A stretch of 35,039 bases of DNA, from the IMG/VR virus record IMGVR_UViG_3300021952_000017, positions 1-35,039 of that record; one strand, given 5' to 3'. Both the position numbers and the translations under genes were made by a program. The notes under the pieces were generated by a model, which saw only the letters and a list, made by a program, of their open reading frames with translations, ran no database searches and was not told the DNA's origin. Positions 1,530-25,993 of this stretch are shown piece by piece; position 1 is the stretch's first letter; each line of letters begins with the position of its first letter. Source of the DNA: a virus.

Positions 1530-2017
1530 TGTCTATCATCATTGACGGCACAGGCAGTATTTCAGGCGTTAGTTCTAACGGTGGATTATCTTCCGCACAA
1601 ACTGGTAGCGTTATTCAAGTAGTTAATGCTACTACCAATACAAGCACTACAAATTCCACTAATGCTGCTGCTGATACAACTTTAACTGCAACTATTACAC
1701 CTAAATTTGCAACAAGCAAAATTTTAGTTATTGTTCAGCAAAATGGAGTTTCTAAACAAAATTCAAGCACTTCTGTATTTTTAAGTCTTTTGCGTAATGG
1801 TTCAAGTGTTATTAATCCTTGGGGCAATTATGTTTCTGACAATGGAACTAGCGCAACAAATCCAACAGGAGTAGGCGTTAATTATTTGGATTCTCCAGCT
1901 TCAACTTCCGCTTTGACATACAAAACTCAATTTTGGTCATCAGCAAACACAGCATTAGCACAAGTTCAATATGGTGGAACAACATCATTTATTACCCTTA
2001 TGGAGATTGCAGGATGA
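1529..2017 (+). CDS. Short tail-fibre/virion surface protein
   Basis: A 162-residue protein beginning MSIIIDGTGSISGVSSNGG, a starter typical of short fibres in aquatic phages. Its middle, LTATITPKFATSKILVIVQQNG, followed by FLSLLRNGS, has the alternating beta pattern of a jelly-roll cap and parallels the C1q-like domain of the gene at the left window edge. It overlaps the preceding stop by one base and the next start by four bases. It probably forms or caps a fibre. No catalytic motif is seen. Confidence 0.65.
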   Translation: MSIIIDGTGSISGVSSNGGLSSAQTGSVIQVVNATTNTSTTNSTNAAADTTLTATITPKFATSKILVIVQQNGVSKQNSSTSVFLSLLRNGSSVINPWGNYVSDNGTSATNPTGVGVNYLDSPASTSALTYKTQFWSSANTALAQVQYGGTTSFITLMEIAG

Positions 2018-2241
2018 TTAATATTGCTCAAGCCATACATCAACTTTATCCACAAGTAGTTCGTACTGAAGATAATGTAGCCTATGATGCAGAAGGCAAT
2101 GAAGTAATCTACGATTTGAAAGCAGTAACTGAAAAAGCAGAAGCAAATGCAAAATCACAAGAAGCATCAAAGGCTTCTGCATTAGCTAAATTATCTGCGC
2201 TTGGTCTTACGCAAGACGAAATTAAAGCATTGGTAGGTTAA
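2014..2241 (+). CDS. Small tail-fibre-associated protein, helical C-terminus
   Basis: The ATG overlapping the preceding TGA (ATGA) gives 75 residues, preferred over a longer upstream start that would overlap the fibre gene. The N-terminus (MINIAQAIHQLYPQVV) resembles the 52-residue protein at 484-642 (KLIKIYPEL). The C-terminal half is an Ala/Lys/Glu helix ending LSALGLTQDEIKALVG. Each of these two small genes follows a fibre gene, so they may be a paralogous fibre-chaperone pair. That function is an inference. Confidence 0.6.
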   Translation: MINIAQAIHQLYPQVVRTEDNVAYDAEGNEVIYDLKAVTEKAEANAKSQEASKASALAKLSALGLTQDEIKALVG

Positions 2242-2242
2242 T

Positions 2243-2443
2243 ATGTTTATCGTTACCTGGTTATTTGACAAAATTGGTTATATGCCTAAAGTGTCGGTTG
2301 ACACTACATGGCCTTTTCCAGCTACTCAGCGTGACTACAAACCTCATCCAGATGAAGTAAAAAAACCTGCAAAAAAAGCAGCAAAAAAGACTTCTGTTAA
2401 AATCCCTAAAGCGACTACTCGCACTCCAAAACCTAAAAAATAG
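2243..2443 (+). CDS. Small basic protein of unknown function
   Basis: A 66-residue protein with a hydrophobic N-terminus (MFIVTWLFDKIGYMPK), a WPFPATQRDYKP segment and a strongly basic Lys/Ala/Thr/Pro tail with repeated KKPAKKAAKK. Such tails bind nucleic acid or acidic lipid. It sits one base after the previous stop and abuts the lysis genes. I do not recognise a named family with certainty. It is likely expressed with the late fibre/lysis block. Confidence 0.6.
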   Translation: MFIVTWLFDKIGYMPKVSVDTTWPFPATQRDYKPHPDEVKKPAKKAAKKTSVKIPKATTRTPKPKK

Positions 2444-2451
2444 TGTGCGAT

Positions 2452-2667
2452 ATGGCTGACCTTGAGAAATTTGATATGTTTAAGTTTGGCGGCTTGGTAA
2501 ATCAAGTCGAGAATTTACAACATAAAGTTGACTCTATGGATAAAGACATTAAAGAGTTACTAGAGTTAGCCAACAGGTCTAAAGGCGGTTTCTGGATGGG
2601 TATGACTTTTGCCTCTATTGTTGGCGGCTTTATCACCTACATAAGTAGCTGGCTATTCCACAAATGA
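2452..2667 (+). CDS. XhlA-like holin-associated membrane protein
   Basis: A 71-residue protein: residues 1-45 form an amphipathic coiled coil (heptads around VENLQHKVDSMDKDIKELLELA), followed by one transmembrane helix (MGMTFASIVGGFITYISSWLF) and a short basic end. This is the layout of XhlA/haemolysin-type proteins that work with holins. A GTG at 2443 overlapping the previous stop would add three residues; ATG at 2452 is chosen, but neither has a strong Shine-Dalgarno site. The next gene overlaps by four bases and encodes a two-helix membrane protein, which supports a lysis role. Confidence 0.6.
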   Translation: MADLEKFDMFKFGGLVNQVENLQHKVDSMDKDIKELLELANRSKGGFWMGMTFASIVGGFITYISSWLFHK

Positions 2668-2849
2668 AGCGTATGCGTCAATCGAAGACCATGTGGTTTT
2701 CGCTTGCGTTAGTTGTATTTGGCGCATTAATGGACAACTTTTCTTACTTACAGTCAGTTATTGACCAAAAATACTATGGCATTTTATTGGTTGGCATTGG
2801 CATTATTGTGGCTGTGCTTAGGTTTGTTACTACAGGGCCTGTAAGATGA
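2664..2849 (+). CDS. Holin-like two-helix membrane protein
   Basis: A 61-residue protein with a short basic N-terminus (MKRMRQSK), one transmembrane helix (MWFSLALVVFGALMDNF), a short polar loop and a second helix (YGILLVGIGIIVAVLRFV). This is class II holin topology. Start and stop overlap both neighbours by four bases. It lies between an XhlA-like protein and the spanin/endolysin genes. Holin function follows from topology and context; no direct family match can be run here. Confidence 0.6.
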   Translation: MKRMRQSKTMWFSLALVVFGALMDNFSYLQSVIDQKYYGILLVGIGIIVAVLRFVTTGPVR

Positions 2850-3394
2850 TATATATAAAGTATATATTCCTAGTACCAATTAGCCTTGTTATAACATTGT
2901 TAGCACTTATAACAGCGCCTGTAATGCCTTTATTTGCTAAAGACGCATTGGGATGGCTAAATAATGGCTCTCAATTTGGTGTCGGCCCAAGATTACCTAA
3001 ATGGTTTAGTTGGTTTCAAACCCCTGACAATAGCTTAAATGGTGACGAAACCTTTGAAAGAATTAATGGCATTAGCTATTGGTCTAAAGTTAAATGGTTA
3101 TGGCGTAACCCTGCTTATGCGTTTGCTTTAGAGTATATACATTCGCCATATACAACAGAAGTATTTGGCGACCCAACCATTAAGGACAACGACAATGCAA
3201 AAGCTGGCTACTGTTTCGTTAAAGCTAACGGACTATTTCAATTTACTTGGATTGCCACTATTGGTTTTAGTCGGTGTTTTCGCATTACTCTCGGTTGGAA
3301 TATTATGGGCTTGGTTGACCCTAACATCAAAGTTAAGCCAGATAATTGGGAAGCAACCTTTGCATTTTCGCCACGATTAAGCGGATTTAGATAA
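2846..3394 (+). CDS. Conserved phage membrane protein in lysis cassette
   Basis: A 182-residue protein with an N-terminal hydrophobic helix (residues 5-30) followed by a soluble part containing WFSWFQTPDNSLNGDETF and WLWRNPAYAFAL. The FQTPDN...RNPAY combination recurs in uncharacterised proteins next to lysis genes of Gram-negative phages, as I recall. It overlaps the holin-like gene by four bases and the spanin start by one. Function unknown; an envelope location is likely. Confidence 0.6.
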   Translation: MIYIKYIFLVPISLVITLLALITAPVMPLFAKDALGWLNNGSQFGVGPRLPKWFSWFQTPDNSLNGDETFERINGISYWSKVKWLWRNPAYAFALEYIHSPYTTEVFGDPTIKDNDNAKAGYCFVKANGLFQFTWIATIGFSRCFRITLGWNIMGLVDPNIKVKPDNWEATFAFSPRLSGFR

Positions 3395-3795
3395 TGGACT
3401 ATGTCAAACTTAGTATTGCTGCTGTTTTACTACTTGGGGCTTTTGCTACTGGTTGGAGTGTACGCAATCGTGATTTCAATGAATATAAACAAGAAGTCAG
3501 TAACGCTGTTAAGGCACAAGAAGCCCATGTCGAGTCAATCAAGAAACAACAGGCATTAGTCACAAAAGGAATAGAAAATGAGTACGAAGCTAAAATTAGT
3601 GCTTTGCGCAATTACTATAAGTCTACAAGCGTGTGGAACAACGGCAGTACCGGCAAAATGTCAGGAATTTCCGCAGCCCCCAGCGCAACTGATGTTATCA
3701 CCGCCTACAACATTCTTGCTGGCTCCTGCTCAGAAACAACCCAGCAATTAGTTAGTTTGCAAGAATGGTTAAATCAGCAGATGGTTATTAAATGA
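3394..3795 (+). CDS. Rz-like inner-membrane spanin
   Basis: A 133-residue protein with an N-terminal transmembrane anchor (residues 4-22), a charged coiled coil (residues 28-75) and a C-terminal CSETTQQLVSLQEWLNQQ segment. The C-x-x-T-T-x-Q-L...LQxW signature is typical of Rz-type i-spanins, which fuse inner and outer membranes in the last lysis step. No Rz1-type lipoprotein with a lipobox was found inside or beside it, so the outer-membrane partner is missing or unrecognised. The stop overlaps the HNH gene start (ATGA). Confidence 0.75.
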   Translation: MDYVKLSIAAVLLLGAFATGWSVRNRDFNEYKQEVSNAVKAQEAHVESIKKQQALVTKGIENEYEAKISALRNYYKSTSVWNNGSTGKMSGISAAPSATDVITAYNILAGSCSETTQQLVSLQEWLNQQMVIK

Positions 3796-4298
3796 AAATA
3801 TGTAGTTGCTGCGGCTTTAAAAAGCCATTAATTGAATTTTACAAACAAAAAGATTGTTTAGACGGTCATAGGTCTAAATGCAAGTTATGCACAAAAGAAA
3901 CAAAAAAACAGCGTTATAAAGTTGTAAAAGAAGAATACAAAGAAAGAAATCGTATTTGGAAAGAAGCAAACGATAGGACTGAATATCACGCAAAATATCG
4001 CCAAAAAAACAAAGAAAAAATTAAACAATATTTTGCAAATTCTCGGCATATTTCAGCAAAAAATAGGTCTATTAGAAGGTCTAGGCTTTTGCAAAGAACT
4101 CCGCAATGGCTTACTGCTACAGATTTATTTGAAATTGAATGTATTTACAAATATTGTGGCGCATTGAGAGATGTTGGACTTAAATATGAAGTAGACCATA
4201 TTATTCCTTTGGCTGGCAAAAATGTGTCAGGATTTCATGTTCCTGCTAATTTGCAAGTCATTCCTATGGTTGATAATAGACAAAAAGCAAACAAATGA
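3792..4298 (+). CDS. HNH endonuclease inserted in the lysis cassette
   Basis: A 168-residue protein. Residues 4-33 contain a zinc-finger pattern C4-x2-C7...C30-x2-C33, followed by a basic helical linker rich in Lys/Arg. Residues 133-168 carry the HNH core: VDHIIPLAGKNVSG with D135/H136, then PANLQVIP with N153, and a closing NRQKANK. It is probably a free-standing homing-type nuclease; a packaging-linked role is possible but unlikely here. It is coupled by four-base overlaps to the spanin and endolysin genes, so it has joined the cassette without breaking translation. Confidence 0.85.
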   Translation: MKICSCCGFKKPLIEFYKQKDCLDGHRSKCKLCTKETKKQRYKVVKEEYKERNRIWKEANDRTEYHAKYRQKNKEKIKQYFANSRHISAKNRSIRRSRLLQRTPQWLTATDLFEIECIYKYCGALRDVGLKYEVDHIIPLAGKNVSGFHVPANLQVIPMVDNRQKANK

Positions 4299-4813
4299 CA
4301 GGTAATTTTAAAGATTGTTTGGACTTGGTTTTGAAGTCCGAAGGTGGATATGTAAACAACCCAGCAGACCCAGGTGGAATGACAAATTTAGGGGTTACAA
4401 AGCGTGTTTGGGAAGAATATACTGGACATGAGGTTGACGAAAAAGCCATGCGTGCTTTGACACCTGAAAAAGTAGCACCTTTGTATGAACAGAAATATTG
4501 GAGGCCTTGTTATGGGGAAGTATTACCTAGGGGACTCGACTTTGCTGTATTTTCCTTTGGAGTTAACGCAGGCCCAGGCAGGTCAGTTAAATTGCTTCAA
4601 TCAGTTATTGGATGTGTACCTGACGGAGTTATTGGCCCAAGAACAAGAGAACTTATTTCCGCCAGTAATTCTGCAACTCTTATCACTAAATTCTCAGAAG
4701 CTAGGAGAGAGTATTACAGAGCATTAAAGACCTTCCCTGTCTTTGGCAAGGGTTGGTTAGCCAGAGTAGACAGAGAAGAGTCAGAAGCCTTAAATATGGC
4801 TAAAAACGGGTAG
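4295..4813 (+). CDS. Endolysin, GH108-type N-acetylmuramidase
   Basis: A 172-residue protein. The N-terminus has the glycoside hydrolase 108 signature: catalytic Glu16 in KSEGGYVNNPADPGG, followed by MTNLGVTK. The C-terminal half (VNAGPGRSVKLLQ, then DGVIGPRTREL) matches the peptidoglycan-binding_3 domain that usually accompanies GH108. It cleaves the glycan backbone of peptidoglycan. There is no signal peptide, so it probably depends on the holin-like gene upstream. It is the last gene of the rightward lysis block and overlaps the leftward gene end by 14 bases. A weak hairpin (GGGT/ACCC, 4808-4819) lies at the convergent ends. Confidence 0.9.
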   Translation: MTGNFKDCLDLVLKSEGGYVNNPADPGGMTNLGVTKRVWEEYTGHEVDEKAMRALTPEKVAPLYEQKYWRPCYGEVLPRGLDFAVFSFGVNAGPGRSVKLLQSVIGCVPDGVIGPRTRELISASNSATLITKFSEARREYYRALKTFPVFGKGWLARVDREESEALNMAKNG

Positions 4814-4982
4814 AAACCCAAACAATTAACCCTAATGCTGCAATAACCCCAAAAACCGCCCATAAATGGTCGTATTCGGCTTTTTGCGGCATTTCTATAC
4901 CAGTAGCATATTCAGCGTCTTTAAACGCTTCTGAAGCTGTTTTATAGCTTTTACCGACCATTCCAAAACTTCTTGTACTCAT
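4800..4982 (-). CDS. Small C-terminally anchored membrane protein
   Basis: A 60-residue protein starting MSTRSFGMVGKSYKTASEAFKD, with one transmembrane helix at the C-terminus (WAVFGVIAALGLIVWV). The ATG at 4982 is preferred because an AAGGGGAA octamer lies just upstream. A GTG at 5042 would extend it by 20 residues with no good site. It is the last gene of the leftward early block. It could be a membrane effector or superinfection factor, but nothing in the sequence says which. Confidence 0.6.
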   Translation of the reverse strand: MSTRSFGMVGKSYKTASEAFKDAEYATGIEMPQKAEYDHLWAVFGVIAALGLIVWVSTRF

Positions 4983-4988
4983 AGTTGC

Positions 4989-4996
4989 TTCCCCTT
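4989..4996 (-). promoter_or_regulatory. AAGGGGAA-type ribosome binding site deciding the start at 4982
   Basis: On the minus strand the octamer AAGGGGAA lies six bases before ATG 4982. The same octamer precedes seven other starts (5630, 6672, 7343, 7988, 9304, 10250 and 14050) at similar spacing. It therefore supports the shorter start for this gene. Confidence 0.6.
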
Positions 4997-5038
4997 GTTT
5001 ACAGTTAATAGTAAAACTACCGTTTTTTTCTTGGTAAA

Positions 5039-5182
5039 TCACACCAAGTCCTCCAGCTTAATACCTCGTTTTTCTAATTCTTTAAGCATTTTTCTATAAG
5101 CCCTTTCCAGTATTTCAGTAACCGCCTGATGGCTAATGCCCAATTCTTGCCCAATTTCTCTAAGTGTTTTTGGTTCTGTCAT
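5039..5182 (-). CDS. Mini sigma-region-4-like helix-turn-helix protein
   Basis: A 47-residue reading frame, ATG at 5182, with a strong AGGAGG site eight bases upstream. After MTEPK, the rest reads as a sigma-70 region 4.2 helix-turn-helix: TLREIGQELGISHQAV is the helix-turn-helix and TEILERAYRKMLKELEKRGI the following helix. In sigma factors this module reads the -35 element and touches the beta-flap. No other sigma region is present. It may act as a small DNA-binding regulator, an anti-sigma-like competitor or an RNA-polymerase appropriator. The fold assignment is fairly firm; the role is inferred. Confidence 0.75.
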   Translation of the reverse strand: MTEPKTLREIGQELGISHQAVTEILERAYRKMLKELEKRGIKLEDLV

Positions 5183-10295: not shown

Positions 10296-10396
10296 TTGTA
10301 GGAATACTGCAATTTACTAAAGGTTCTATATCTAATGCGTTAATTTGGATTGGCTATGCTGCCGCACAAATTGGTCTATGGATGAACCTTAAATGA
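10250..10396 (+). CDS. Two-helix membrane micro-protein
   Basis: A 48-residue reading frame starting at ATG 10250, five bases after AAGGGGAA (10237-10244), the early-gene Shine-Dalgarno octamer. Two hydrophobic segments (VAATGFGYLIVGILQF and ALIWIGYAAAQIGLWM) flank a polar loop. It overlaps the preceding gene by 46 bases and the methyltransferase start by four. The ribosome site and coupling are the main evidence; function unknown. Confidence 0.55.
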   Translation: MLEKYIVAATGFGYLIVGILQFTKGSISNALIWIGYAAAQIGLWMNLK

Positions 10397-11556
10397 ACTA
10401 TTTAAGCGTTTGTTCTGGAATAGAAGCGGCCACAGTAGCGTGGCATCACATGGGTTGGAAACCAGTAGGTTTTAGCGAAATTGAGAAATTTCCTAGTCAA
10501 TTATTGGCACACCATTACCCAGAAGTCACCAATTTTGGTGATATGACTAAATACAAAGAATGGAATATAAATGACTCAGTTGGACTTTTGGTCGGAGGTA
10601 CTCCCTGCCAATCATTTAGCGTTGCAGGCTTACGCAAAGGACTTGACGACCCAAGAGGTAACCTCGCTCTTACCTATGTTGGAATTCTTGACAGATTTAG
10701 ACCCCAATGGTGTGTATGGGAAAATGTGCCAGGTGTCCTCAGCAGCGGAAGAGGAAGGGACTTTGGTAGTTTCCTCGGGGCGTTGGTCGAACTCGGGTAT
10801 GGGTTTTCGTACAGGGTGCTTGACGCTCAAAACTTCGGAGTCGCCCAAAGACGCAAGCGTGTGTTTGTTGTCGGATACCTTGGAGATTGGCGACCTGCCG
10901 CAAAAGTATTATTTGAGTCCGAAAGCCTGTCAGGGGATATTAAACAGAGCCGCAAAGAGAAACAAGAAATTGCCGGACGCTTTGTACCAAGCGTTGCTAA
11001 CTGTATCCAAACAACTTGTAACGACTACAGTAGAGCAGACGGATTTAATATGATTGCGTACAACATTAGGGAATGTGCGGCAAACAACACATTTAATGCT
11101 ACTCCAACAAATGTAGCAACAACGCTGCAAAAAACACAGCCTTCCGTACAAAGTCATCACACTCAGACATTTGTTGCGGTTGATATGTATAACTTAACAA
11201 CTAATAACAGCACAAGTCAAACCATTAGAAATGGTACAGATATTGACCATGTTGGAGGTGTTATGAAATCTGTTTTTTGCGATACATACAATGGAACAAT
11301 ACAAGGTAATGTGGCGGCAACAATGACTGCTGATATGGCAGGCCCTACTCATAGTGGCCCTAAAGTAATGCAAGATAGTTTAGTTCGAAGACTTACCCCA
11401 GTTGAATGTGAAAGATTGCAGGGTTTTCCAGATAACTACACTAATATTAAAGAAAACTGCCCAGATGGAAATAGATATAGAGCATTAGGTAATTCAATGG
11501 CTGTGCCTGTAATGCGCTGGATTGGCGAAAGGATTAATAATTATGAAAGATTATGA
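10393..11556 (+). CDS. dcm: DNA (cytosine-5) methyltransferase
   Basis: A 387-residue C5-methyltransferase with the ordered motifs: SAM-binding motif I (SVCSGIEAATVA, residues 5-16), catalytic PCQ (Cys72 in GGTPCQSFS), ENV (110-112), QRRKR (152-156), a variable target-recognition region about 195-330, motif IX (RRLTPVECERLQGFPD from 332) and GNS (366-368). It methylates cosine-ring carbon 5 of cytosine in a specific site, probably shielding phage DNA from host restriction. No paired restriction enzyme is proven, though PD-(D/E)XK and HNH nucleases follow. A long second reading frame lies inside it. The start overlaps the upstream stop. Confidence 0.93.
   Translation: MNYLSVCSGIEAATVAWHHMGWKPVGFSEIEKFPSQLLAHHYPEVTNFGDMTKYKEWNINDSVGLLVGGTPCQSFSVAGLRKGLDDPRGNLALTYVGILDRFRPQWCVWENVPGVLSSGRGRDFGSFLGALVELGYGFSYRVLDAQNFGVAQRRKRVFVVGYLGDWRPAAKVLFESESLSGDIKQSRKEKQEIAGRFVPSVANCIQTTCNDYSRADGFNMIAYNIRECAANNTFNATPTNVATTLQKTQPSVQSHHTQTFVAVDMYNLTTNNSTSQTIRNGTDIDHVGGVMKSVFCDTYNGTIQGNVAATMTADMAGPTHSGPKVMQDSLVRRLTPVECERLQGFPDNYTNIKENCPDGNRYRALGNSMAVPVMRWIGERINNYERL
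10571..11053 (+). CDS. Candidate overlapping gene inside the methyltransferase gene
   Basis: A 160-codon ATG-started frame runs inside the methyltransferase gene in another frame, unusually long for AT-rich DNA. The product has a non-random tail: SSGRWSNSGMGFRTGCLT, LKTSESPKDASVCLLSDTL, then YYLSPKACQGILNRAAKR and KLPDAL. From memory, proteins with RWxNSGM...TSE...LS...YYLSPKACxGILRRAxKRGKxLP are found free-standing near phage methyltransferases. That would make this a conserved dual-coding region. The alternative is that conserved methyltransferase codons keep this frame open by chance. No good ribosome site precedes the start. Function unknown. Confidence 0.45.
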   Translation: MTQLDFWSEVLPANHLALQAYAKDLTTQEVTSLLPMLEFLTDLDPNGVYGKMCQVSSAAEEEGTLVVSSGRWSNSGMGFRTGCLTLKTSESPKDASVCLLSDTLEIGDLPQKYYLSPKACQGILNRAAKRNKKLPDALYQALLTVSKQLVTTTVEQTDLI

Positions 11557-22596: not shown

Positions 22597-23489
22597 ACCC
22601 CCACGCAAAATACAAAGAAGCCTACGAGCATTTACACCAAGGTCGTTATGACGCTGGTTTTAGATTGTTTGAATATCGTTGGCATCCTGACATTCTTGCT
22701 AATCAAGTAACACCATACACACAAAAGCCAAAAAACCCTGCGGTATGGCGTGGTGAGTCACTATTAAACAAGTCCATAGTTATTCAAATGGAACAAGGAT
22801 TTGGCGACATACTTATGTTTGCTCGTTTCTTGCCATTTTTAAAGGTTATGGGCGCACAAAAGGTTGTATTACTGACACATGGCTCATTACTTCAGCTTTT
22901 AGGTCAGTTTGAGTGCGTTGATGTGCTGACAAACCAGCCTGAATGTCCTGATGTAGTCGAATGTGACTACTGGATTGGCAATATGAGCCTTCCGTACTAC
23001 ATATCGTGCGCTAATAAATACGCTAAATCGCTATTTCCTGTAACTACAAAAAAGATTGTAGCGTCAGAAGGCTATATGGACGCTAAACCTTCCAATATTG
23101 AGCCAAAAATAGGGGTAAATTGGGGTGCAAGCCGCAACATTCTATTTCACATTAAGTCTATTCCTGACCATTTGATGTATGAATTGGTAGGTGATAACGC
23201 TTATAGCTTATCTCCAGAGCATGATGGCTTTTTTCACCCATTGCCTGACGATGGTTGGAAAACAGACTGGGCAGTCACAGCACGCCACATGAAATCTATG
23301 AAGGGTATTGTGACAGTTGACACCGGCACAGCCCATCTTGCAGGCGCATTGGGTGTAAAAACCATTGTGCTGCTACCCAAAGAAGAATATATCTGCTGGC
23401 GTTGGAAAAATGGCAGGTGGTATGACTCTGTCATCGCCTTGCGCCAAGAAGAATATGACCAAGTACCTGACTTAATAAGGAGGATGTAA
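22578..23489 (+). CDS. GT9-like glycosyltransferase with non-canonical start
   Basis: The C-terminal 270 residues resemble GT9-type (heptosyltransferase-like) proteins: SIVIQMEQGFGDILMFARFL, IGVNWGAS, VDTGTAHLAGALGVKTIVLL, and WRWKNGRWYDSV. A TTG at 22665 is the first usual start, but upstream in frame the sequence HAKYKEAYEHLHQGRYDAGFRLFEYRW is a TPR-like repeat typical of this family. Open frame extends to 22578, where ATT follows GAAGAGG at Shine-Dalgarno distance. I therefore start there. It could glycosylate virion or host surface. Rare ATT initiation is the main doubt. Confidence 0.7.
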   Translation: MSTYSVNPHAKYKEAYEHLHQGRYDAGFRLFEYRWHPDILANQVTPYTQKPKNPAVWRGESLLNKSIVIQMEQGFGDILMFARFLPFLKVMGAQKVVLLTHGSLLQLLGQFECVDVLTNQPECPDVVECDYWIGNMSLPYYISCANKYAKSLFPVTTKKIVASEGYMDAKPSNIEPKIGVNWGASRNILFHIKSIPDHLMYELVGDNAYSLSPEHDGFFHPLPDDGWKTDWAVTARHMKSMKGIVTVDTGTAHLAGALGVKTIVLLPKEEYICWRWKNGRWYDSVIALRQEEYDQVPDLIRRM

Positions 23490-23863
23490 TGCAAATTTGC
23501 CCACAATGCGGTTATAGCGAAAGCAACCATGTTGCAAAAAAACAACAGTCTGATAAAGAGTTTTACCTTGAGTTTTGGGGTTTTACTTTAGGCACTCCAG
23601 AAGCTGAAGAAGCCTGGAAACAAAAAGAAGAAATGACACGCAGAGAAGCGCCAATGGTTATGTCTGACATTGAAGGTTATGTAAGCCAAGTGGATGGCAC
23701 ATGGATTAAAAGCCGCAGCCACCATAGAGCGCACCTAAAAGAACACCGAATGATTGAACTCGGAAACGATGTACCAATGAAGCACGCAGAAGCAAAACTA
23801 AGCAAACAGTCTATGGAAGCAAGAAAGCGTCAAATTGCCGAATTAGCGTATGCAAAACTTTAA
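23489..23863 (+). CDS. Conserved zinc-ribbon protein of the head module
   Basis: A 124-residue protein with N-terminal CPQCG, the start of a zinc ribbon without an obvious second pair, then MSDIEGYVSQVDGTWIKSRSHHRAHLKEHRMIELGND. The central IxSRSxHRxHLKxHxxIELGND motif recurs in proteins near portal and scaffold genes of many phages. Strong AGGAGG precedes the start. Role unknown; maybe assembly-linked. Confidence 0.7.
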   Translation: MQICPQCGYSESNHVAKKQQSDKEFYLEFWGFTLGTPEAEEAWKQKEEMTRREAPMVMSDIEGYVSQVDGTWIKSRSHHRAHLKEHRMIELGNDVPMKHAEAKLSKQSMEARKRQIAELAYAKL

Positions 23864-25018: not shown

Positions 25019-25993
25019 ATGGCATTTGCTAACTCAGCGATTACCGATATTATCGCTACCACTATTCAAAGTCGTAGCGGTGAATTGGCAGACAACTTAA
25101 CACAAAACAACGCAATTCTTCAGCGCTTGAACCAGAAGGGCAATGTACGCCCATTCTCAGGCGGTAATGTGATTTTGGAAGAAATCATGTACAACGACCC
25201 AAATACTAATAACGCTAATTCTTATAGCGGTTACGAAGTATTGAACATTGCTCCAGACAGCCCAATTTCTGCTGCTCAATTTAAGATTGCTCAGTATGCT
25301 GACTCTGTAACAATGTCTGGCTTAGAAATGTTGCAAAACAGCAGCAAAGAAGCAATCATTGACTTGTTAGATGGTCGTATGCAAGTTTCTGAAGCACGCT
25401 TGTTGAACCGCATTTCTGGTGACTTGTACGGTGATGGCACAGGCAACGGTGGTAAGAACCTTGATGGTCTTGGCGCTGCTGTTTCTGCTACTCCTACTTC
25501 TGGCACATACGGTGGTATTAACCGTGCTAACTGGACATTCTGGCAGAACCAAGTAACTACTGGTGCTACTTCTACAAACATCTTAGCTAAGATGACAGAA
25601 GCTGCTATCAAGCAAATTCGTGGCACAGACAAAGCTGACCTTATCGTTGCTGGCAACACAATGTACCAATATTATGTTGGCGCATTGCAAGCTATTCAGC
25701 GTATCGCTTCTGAAGAGTCTGGCGCTGCTGGTTTCGCTTCCCTCAAGTTCTACGGTGGCGGTACATCTGCTGATGTAGTACTCGGTGGTGGTTATGGCTC
25801 ACAAGAAACAGCTACATATATGTACCTGTTGAACACCAACTACATTTTCTTACGCCCACACAAAGAGCGTAACTTTGTACCTATTGGTGGCGAGCGTCAG
25901 GCTATTAACCAGGATGCGATTGTAAAATTGTATGGCTGGGCCGGCAATCTTACAACTTCAAACAGCTTCCTACAAGGCTTGTTGACAACCTAA
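25019..25993 (+). CDS. Major capsid protein
   Basis: A 324-residue protein directly after the scaffold. MAFANSAITDIIATTIQSRSGELADNLTQNNAILQRLNQ is a typical phage coat N-terminal arm, followed by IISA-type E-loop residues, LFGDGTGNGGKNLDGLGA-like loop (GDLYGDGTGNGG), and a Gly-rich C-terminal part. HK97-type fold inferred. A strong hairpin lies right after the stop, consistent with a highly expressed gene. No cleavage signal or fused protease seen. Confidence 0.88.
   Translation: MAFANSAITDIIATTIQSRSGELADNLTQNNAILQRLNQKGNVRPFSGGNVILEEIMYNDPNTNNANSYSGYEVLNIAPDSPISAAQFKIAQYADSVTMSGLEMLQNSSKEAIIDLLDGRMQVSEARLLNRISGDLYGDGTGNGGKNLDGLGAAVSATPTSGTYGGINRANWTFWQNQVTTGATSTNILAKMTEAAIKQIRGTDKADLIVAGNTMYQYYVGALQAIQRIASEESGAAGFASLKFYGGGTSADVVLGGGYGSQETATYMYLLNTNYIFLRPHKERNFVPIGGERQAINQDAIVKLYGWAGNLTTSNSFLQGLLTT

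Follow-up and report, generated by a model that had tools for sequence, protein, structure and literature searches.

A conserved gene nested within C5-cytosine methyltransferase genes of phages and a putative accessory role for its product

The window, that is the whole stretch of DNA analysed here, is an IMG/VR virus record of 35,039 bases. Among ten window proteins scanned, matches to phage genes were obtained for terminase large subunit, portal, tail fibre, exonuclease and replication-initiation proteins. The first-pass annotation had described an open reading frame (ORF) of 160 codons lying inside a cytosine methyltransferase (MTase) gene. The ORF was located exactly at the place given there, in the +1 frame of the MTase and entirely within it, spanning the codons of the ENV and QRRKR motifs. 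The features of the locus are the following:

10393..11556, + strand: C5-cytosine DNA methyltransferase (MTase), 387 aa, host gene of the overlap (PF00145, TIGR00675)
10555..10563, + strand: Shine-Dalgarno-like AAAGAATGG, within MTase codons 55-57 (25 of 39 representatives have AAGGAG here)
10568..10570, + strand: TAA stop, in frame, immediately 5' of the ATG of the nested gene (sequence)
10571..11053, + strand: nested (overlapping) gene, 160 aa, ATG start, +1 frame of the MTase (ORF list, open frame, synonymous constraint)
10577..10591, + strand: QLDFW, sliding-clamp-motif-like N-terminal peptide, residues 3-7 of the nested protein (enriched in relatives versus a synonymous-resampling null)
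10835..11014, + strand: C-terminal module, residues 89-148 of the nested protein (kept in distant phages; AlphaFold2 pLDDT 84-96 at residues 111-150)

Judged from its sequence, the window MTase is an ordinary full C5 enzyme. It matched PF00145 with an E value of 7.6e-60 over residues 1-382 (positions 1-323 of the 324 of the profile) and TIGR00675 with 1.2e-59. A motif-IX-like stretch, LTPVECERLQGFPDN, is present in the MTase's own frame, and none was seen in the nested protein (P0001).

Relatives were drawn in two ways, either by the nested ORF itself, which biases the set towards the ORF, or by the MTase protein alone. All 80 ORF-selected IMG/VR loci (the best 80 of more relatives) had the ORF in the same frame relative to the MTase, with open frames of 149-176 codons. 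In 52 distinct MTase-selected genes the longest run in the +1 frame had a median of 160 codons (51 genes with at least 149, one with 120), and the median for the +2 frame of the same genes was 40. When the synonymous codons of the window MTase were permuted with its residues fixed, the longest +1 run was on average 57 codons versus the 160 observed, a length reached in none of 500 permutations. The within-gene synonymous permutation of 42 representatives of both sets gave p values of 0.01 or less in 36 of the 42 for the +1 frame and in one for the +2 frame. Over 149 overlap codons no stop was found in 39 representatives (the 42 minus three cut at the 5' end) versus 6.6 expected per gene after synonymous resampling, the probability of a stop-free stretch being approximately 0.0004 per gene.

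As a measure of synonymous constraint in 26 MTase-selected representatives, the codon identity seen in pairs with the same residue was related to that expected from the pooled codon usage. The ratio was 1.17 for MTase residues 1-58, then 1.67, 1.98, 1.86, 2.02, 2.09 and 1.75 in six bins across residues 59-204, and 1.35, 1.30 and 1.15 for residues 205-219, 220-300 and 301-387, respectively. Constraint on the MTase thus sets in at the start of the ORF and fades beneath its variable last residues. At MTase residues 171-190, conservation of the first, second and third codon positions was.762,.885 and.890, the third position matching the second and exceeding the first. Normal synonymous variation had been named beforehand as the outcome that speaks against double coding, and what was found is the opposite, a constraint matching the ORF. 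An RNA or DNA element is an improbable source of the constraint, given that stops are avoided and that the pattern of conservation tracks codon positions in the overlap frame.

For comparison, 47 loci were fetched by PF00145, which comprised 11 with the module, 5 without a full MTase and 31 full MTases without the module. In these 31 other bacterial C5 MTases, from which the module is absent, the +1 run within the 160-codon stretch had a median of 52 and a maximum of 92 codons. Within a class sample, 22 of 94 genomes contained PF00145; the module was seen in 2 of 185, including the seed genome itself. Taking into account that the module is absent from the control MTases and that their +1 runs are short, the module is not a by-product of coding for a C5 MTase. 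The idea that the ORF is a shadow, open and conserved in appearance merely through MTase codons and base composition, was rejected and retains next to no likelihood: long second frames do arise by chance, as in the +2 runs of 134-159 codons in three of the 31 control MTases (L531, L538 and L510), but the constraint is confined to the ORF, resampling, permutation and the open frames of MTase-selected relatives all stand against it, the control +1 runs do not exceed 92 codons, and over the module the overlap frame is more conserved than the MTase frame (see below). The earlier proposal that the region codes twice is therefore strongly supported. These comparisons indicate that selection at the protein level is acting in the nested frame and that 10571-11053 is almost certainly a genuine overlapping gene.

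All 39 representatives had a start codon at gene offset 175 or 178, with 24.5 expected and a maximum of 35 in 1000 resamplings; ATG at offset 178 alone (24 observed, mean 15.9, maximum 24) was at the edge of the null. Just upstream are the MTase codons for K-E, 10 bases before offset 178 and 7 before offset 175. In the 39 representatives they read AAG GAG in 25, and K-E or K-D was encoded by AAA GAA in 11 and by AAA GAT in 3; over the rest of these genes AAG was used in 211 of 700 cases and GAG in 200 of 767. AAGGAG accompanied all 14 non-ATG starts versus 11 of 25 ATG starts (Fisher p 3.5e-4, a statistic that ignores relatedness), and in the window the ATG start is paired with the weaker AAAGAATGG. 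A stop stands immediately before the start, at offset 178 or the equivalent, in 24 of the 42 representatives. In Streptococcus phage MM1 the nested gene (ORF14) starts elsewhere in its MTase and has its own AAAGGAG ahead of the ATG. Independent initiation would be the simplest reading of the start region.

The C-terminal module has the approximate pattern LS..LE...PQKYYLSPKACQGILRRAEKRGK.LP..L..AL. It was found in the +1 frame of the MTases of phages P7, RCS47, CobraSix, MA11, NatCom_38182, Lelie and 234P10 (in P7 and RCS47 this is the +1 frame of dam/dmt) and also in Thibault; Streptococcus phage MM1 and the archaeal virus Drs3 carry its first half only. Matches by tblastn alone, with the frame unassigned, reach phages of Roseobacter, Caulobacter and Pseudanabaena. 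All 160 module-selected loci (the best 80 GTDB contigs and the best 80 IMG/VR records, each the best of more relatives, with best matches over-represented) were nested in the same relative frame, as were 80 of 80 Firmicutes-type loci (again the best 80) and 24 of 24 loci of the L219 type; some contigs are shared between sets, and these counts refer to loci, not to independent events. Besides Proteobacteria, bins of Opitutae, Akkermansiaceae, Phycisphaerae, Nitrospirota and Chloroflexi are named in the GTDB contig titles. Going by these sequences, the overlap is recurrent in phages of several bacterial phyla and in one archaeal virus.

In 55 non-redundant modules (of 208), a set chosen largely through the module itself, identity was 58% in the overlap frame, 44% in the MTase frame and 35% in the third frame. 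Stops were present in the third frame of all 55 and in the overlap frame of one. In this set, larger than the MTase-anchored one described next, conservation by overlap codon position was.77/.83/.56, the third position being least conserved. To counter the bias towards the module, 80 loci were picked by MTase N-terminal patterns (the best 80 of more). Of these, 77 were nested in the same relative frame, which together with the 160 module-selected loci strongly supports the earlier suggestion of a recurrent overlapping gene in MTase loci. The other three were L403 (see below) and L394 and L395, which had no tblastn match to the module and weak profile matches (E 5.3e-3 and 4.7e-5); in L350, L365, L391 and L406, also MTase-selected, the modules diverge beyond the first residues. 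Anchoring by the MTase frame only placed 72 of the 80 loci, 33 of them non-redundant. Over the module these 33 were 58% identical in the overlap frame versus 38% in the MTase frame, with conservation by overlap codon position of.75/.78/.61 and the third position again lowest. The single overlap-frame stop in this set was that of L403.

Free-standing relatives near phage MTases, which the first-pass annotation had mentioned, were not borne out. The loci counted above are nested (160/160, 80/80, 24/24 and 77/80), L403 is fused in frame, and no homologue of the nested protein away from an MTase was found among the classified GTDB and IMG/VR loci or in the 11 phage records opened. The profile of PHROG 13478 (58 aa), a lead at E 0.085, gave no match in three phage records or 14 control genomes, a tool result that is no proof of absence.

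Two kinds of fusion were observed. At L403 the module lies in frame at the C-terminus of the MTase, and the overlap frame contains stops at the usual place of the nested gene. The module match is modest here (profile E 0.0026; tblastn 4e-6 versus another phage record), the arrangement is present in a second contig too, and the C-terminal end reads QLTLFDYLSK. One lineage seems to have resolved the overlap by moving the module to the C-terminus of the MTase. At L183, L213 and L219, where an assembly error is possible, a single open frame covers both the module and MTase motif IX, and in the two of these loci looked at (L183 and L219) the N-terminal half of the MTase is in the other frame. Both kinds of fusion would point to a nested protein that works with the MTase. 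Of the two roles suggested earlier, that of a co-factor is made plausible by these natural fusions, and nothing was found that speaks for counter-defence.

The AlphaFold2 model of the nested protein, built with 55 sequences, had a mean pLDDT of 54.8, with residues 1-92 mostly below 50 and ten-residue blocks from 111 to 150 at 84-96. Helices are predicted at residues 117-129 and 136-158, in or beside the C-terminal module. According to this model the protein would consist of an N-terminal motif, a poorly ordered middle part and a two-helix C-terminal domain. The N-termini of relatives often begin with M.QL[TD][LMF][FW], though the start position in the MTase gene varies between groups. In a test that could anchor 444 of 506 records, and for a motif defined post hoc, after the sequences had been seen, the strict QL[TD][LMF][FW]-like form was present in 37 of 79 non-redundant N-termini and missing from 42, versus 2.3 expected with the MTase residues fixed (maximum 8 in 300 runs). 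We take this motif to resemble the sliding-clamp-binding pentapeptide, the consensus of which is presumably of the QLxLF type. A short motif of this type near a terminus, in a part of low pLDDT, is a feature of clamp-binding proteins that is present here.

Database searches returned little for the nested protein. P0001 had no match in Pfam or NCBIfam at E values up to 1 and none in PADLOC up to 0.1, and 55 aligned members gave stray Pfam matches only, the best with E 0.0037 in one member. The best E values against PDB by sequence were 0.1 (P0001) and 0.16 (alignment A4), and fold searches gave no match at E values up to 0.001 in PDB or among viral models. A sigma-factor fold, suggested by the VIA second look (best Z 5.7 over 45 residues), was not trusted, such Z values being common for helical pieces.

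A family match was obtained with PHROG 16143 (E 1.8e-10, profile positions 64-133 of 139), of which MM1 ORF14 is a full-length member (E 5.3e-82). Like the window ORF, MM1 ORF14 is nested in the +1 frame of a C5 MTase and has its own Shine-Dalgarno-like site and a QMTLF near the start; unlike it, ORF14 ends within the module. It is annotated as 'C5 methyltransferase beta subunit' in DQ113772 (phage MM1 1998) and as 'putative methyltransferase' in AJ302074, labels given despite the lack of an MTase domain of its own, and the broad family of overlapping genes is unrecognised there. PHROG 16143 is called DNA methyltransferase, a label that looks wrong, MM1 ORF14 being a nested protein with no visible MTase domain.

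The top Foldseek match among viral models (E 9.3e-3) was gp104 of Mycobacterium phage Thibault, an annotated but unnamed protein of 81 aa (82 codons with the stop). As in the window, gp104 carries the module and lies over an open MTase frame. In contrast to the window, an HNH endonuclease gene interrupts the Thibault MTase, and gp104 differs in its N-terminal part. In this locus (L158, 1317-3118) gp104 is annotated between the MTase pieces, and the MTase frame beneath it is still open. The second Foldseek match (E 0.07, 33% identity) was the BFVD model A0A8S5LZA8, a 'cytosine specific methyltransferase' of 521 aa; its length is near that of the L403 frame, and it may be another in-frame fusion. 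The other matched phage and plasmid records listed have methyltransferase, hypothetical protein or nothing annotated under the match, and the 'hypothetical proteins' of CobraSix, MA11, NatCom_38182 and Lelie proved to be the MTase itself when the records were opened.

In the literature covered, in part as excerpts, no account of this overlapping gene was found; most subscription journals lie outside that search, so that prior publication is possible. The m5C MTase of a pneumococcal phage is reported to be active, and the parts of that report covered do not mention a second protein (PMC6755750). In tymoviruses, according to the portion of the source covered, p69 is overprinted on the methyltransferase domain of the replicase (PMC8227390). 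As with the window ORF, an enzyme gene there encodes another protein in an alternative frame, but enzyme and virus are unrelated, and recurrence over bacterial phyla and an archaeal virus is a feature of the gene described here.

We propose that translation of the nested protein starts separately within the MTase message, at the Shine-Dalgarno-like site and start codon in MTase codons 55-60, and that this protein would serve as an accessory subunit of the MTase that encloses its gene. The two-helix C-terminal module would bind the MTase (or DNA), and the QLDFW/QLTLF-like peptide in the poorly ordered N-terminal part would dock on the host sliding clamp. An MTase tethered in this way could reach newly replicated phage DNA and methylate it before restriction. 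We consider an accessory MTase protein with a clamp-like tether, taken as a whole, about as probable as its negation, the accessory role being the firmer half.

The small gene of M.EcoHK31I lies in another frame of the large gene. This enzyme is, like the one envisaged here, a C5 MTase working with a second polypeptide, and in the part of the report covered motif IX is assigned to the small one (PMC3404938). A split MTase of this type, in which the nested protein is required for catalysis and not for targeting, is an unlikely alternative. The designation 'beta subunit' in DQ113772 and the open frame shared by the module and motif IX at L183, L213 and L219 are in its favour. However, PF00145 spans residues 1-382 of the window enzyme, and the distribution of motif IX is the reverse of that described for M.EcoHK31I in the part covered (PMC3404938): LTPVECERLQGFPDN is in the MTase, and the nested protein has none. 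Because motif IX was not found in it, the nested gene was not filed as a member of the M.EcoHK31I type. The nested protein may nevertheless work similarly to the small subunit of M.EcoHK31I.

It is similarly improbable that the nested protein has a task separate from the MTase, such as one in counter-defence or transcription, and is nested for compactness only. RNA polymerase sigma-factor chains headed the second-look structural ranking, but at a Z value commonly seen with helical pieces; the lack of a PADLOC match and of any copy away from an MTase among the classified loci, where the exceptions are MTase fusions, argues against separate action. Programmed frameshifting from the MTase, yielding the N-terminal half of the MTase with a module tail, is very unlikely. 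The relation is always +1 where classified and the module frame runs into motif IX at three loci, as frameshifting would have it, but the 5' edge of the ORF has a conserved start codon and Shine-Dalgarno-like site, whose strengths co-vary, and the stop directly before the start in 24 of 42 representatives also stands against it.

If the accessory reading with its clamp-like tether is extended to the relatives, a large subfamily of phage C5 MTases might be a system of two proteins, both encoded by one stretch of DNA in different frames. The hidden member would hold the MTase at the host replication clamp, whereby phage DNA would be methylated on emerging from the fork, and this role would have been rebuilt at least once by placing the module and QLTLF at the C-terminus of the MTase. 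We put this wider picture forward tentatively and regard it as rather doubtful. If the link to the clamp is true, it would account for the coupling of methylation to replication in a phage. A conserved overlapping gene, rarely annotated, appears to have been overlooked in the MTase genes of phages of many hosts, including dmt/dam of P1-like phages, and in the cloning or mutation of orphan phage MTases a second protein may have been carried along, or lost, without being noticed. The family also lends itself well to studying the origin, persistence and resolution of an overlap, one lineage having apparently moved the module.

Two minor observations were made in the course of this work. The Dmt of Escherichia phage RCS47 (L154, CDS 1874-5161) is much longer than that of P7; the insertion, located in the PC/Q motif, begins with C and ends with HN before the next C, and may be an intein to judge from the pattern. 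In the window, ORFs of 122 and 103 codons (25291-25659 and 23234-23545, both on the - strand) are antisense to longer ORFs of the + strand.
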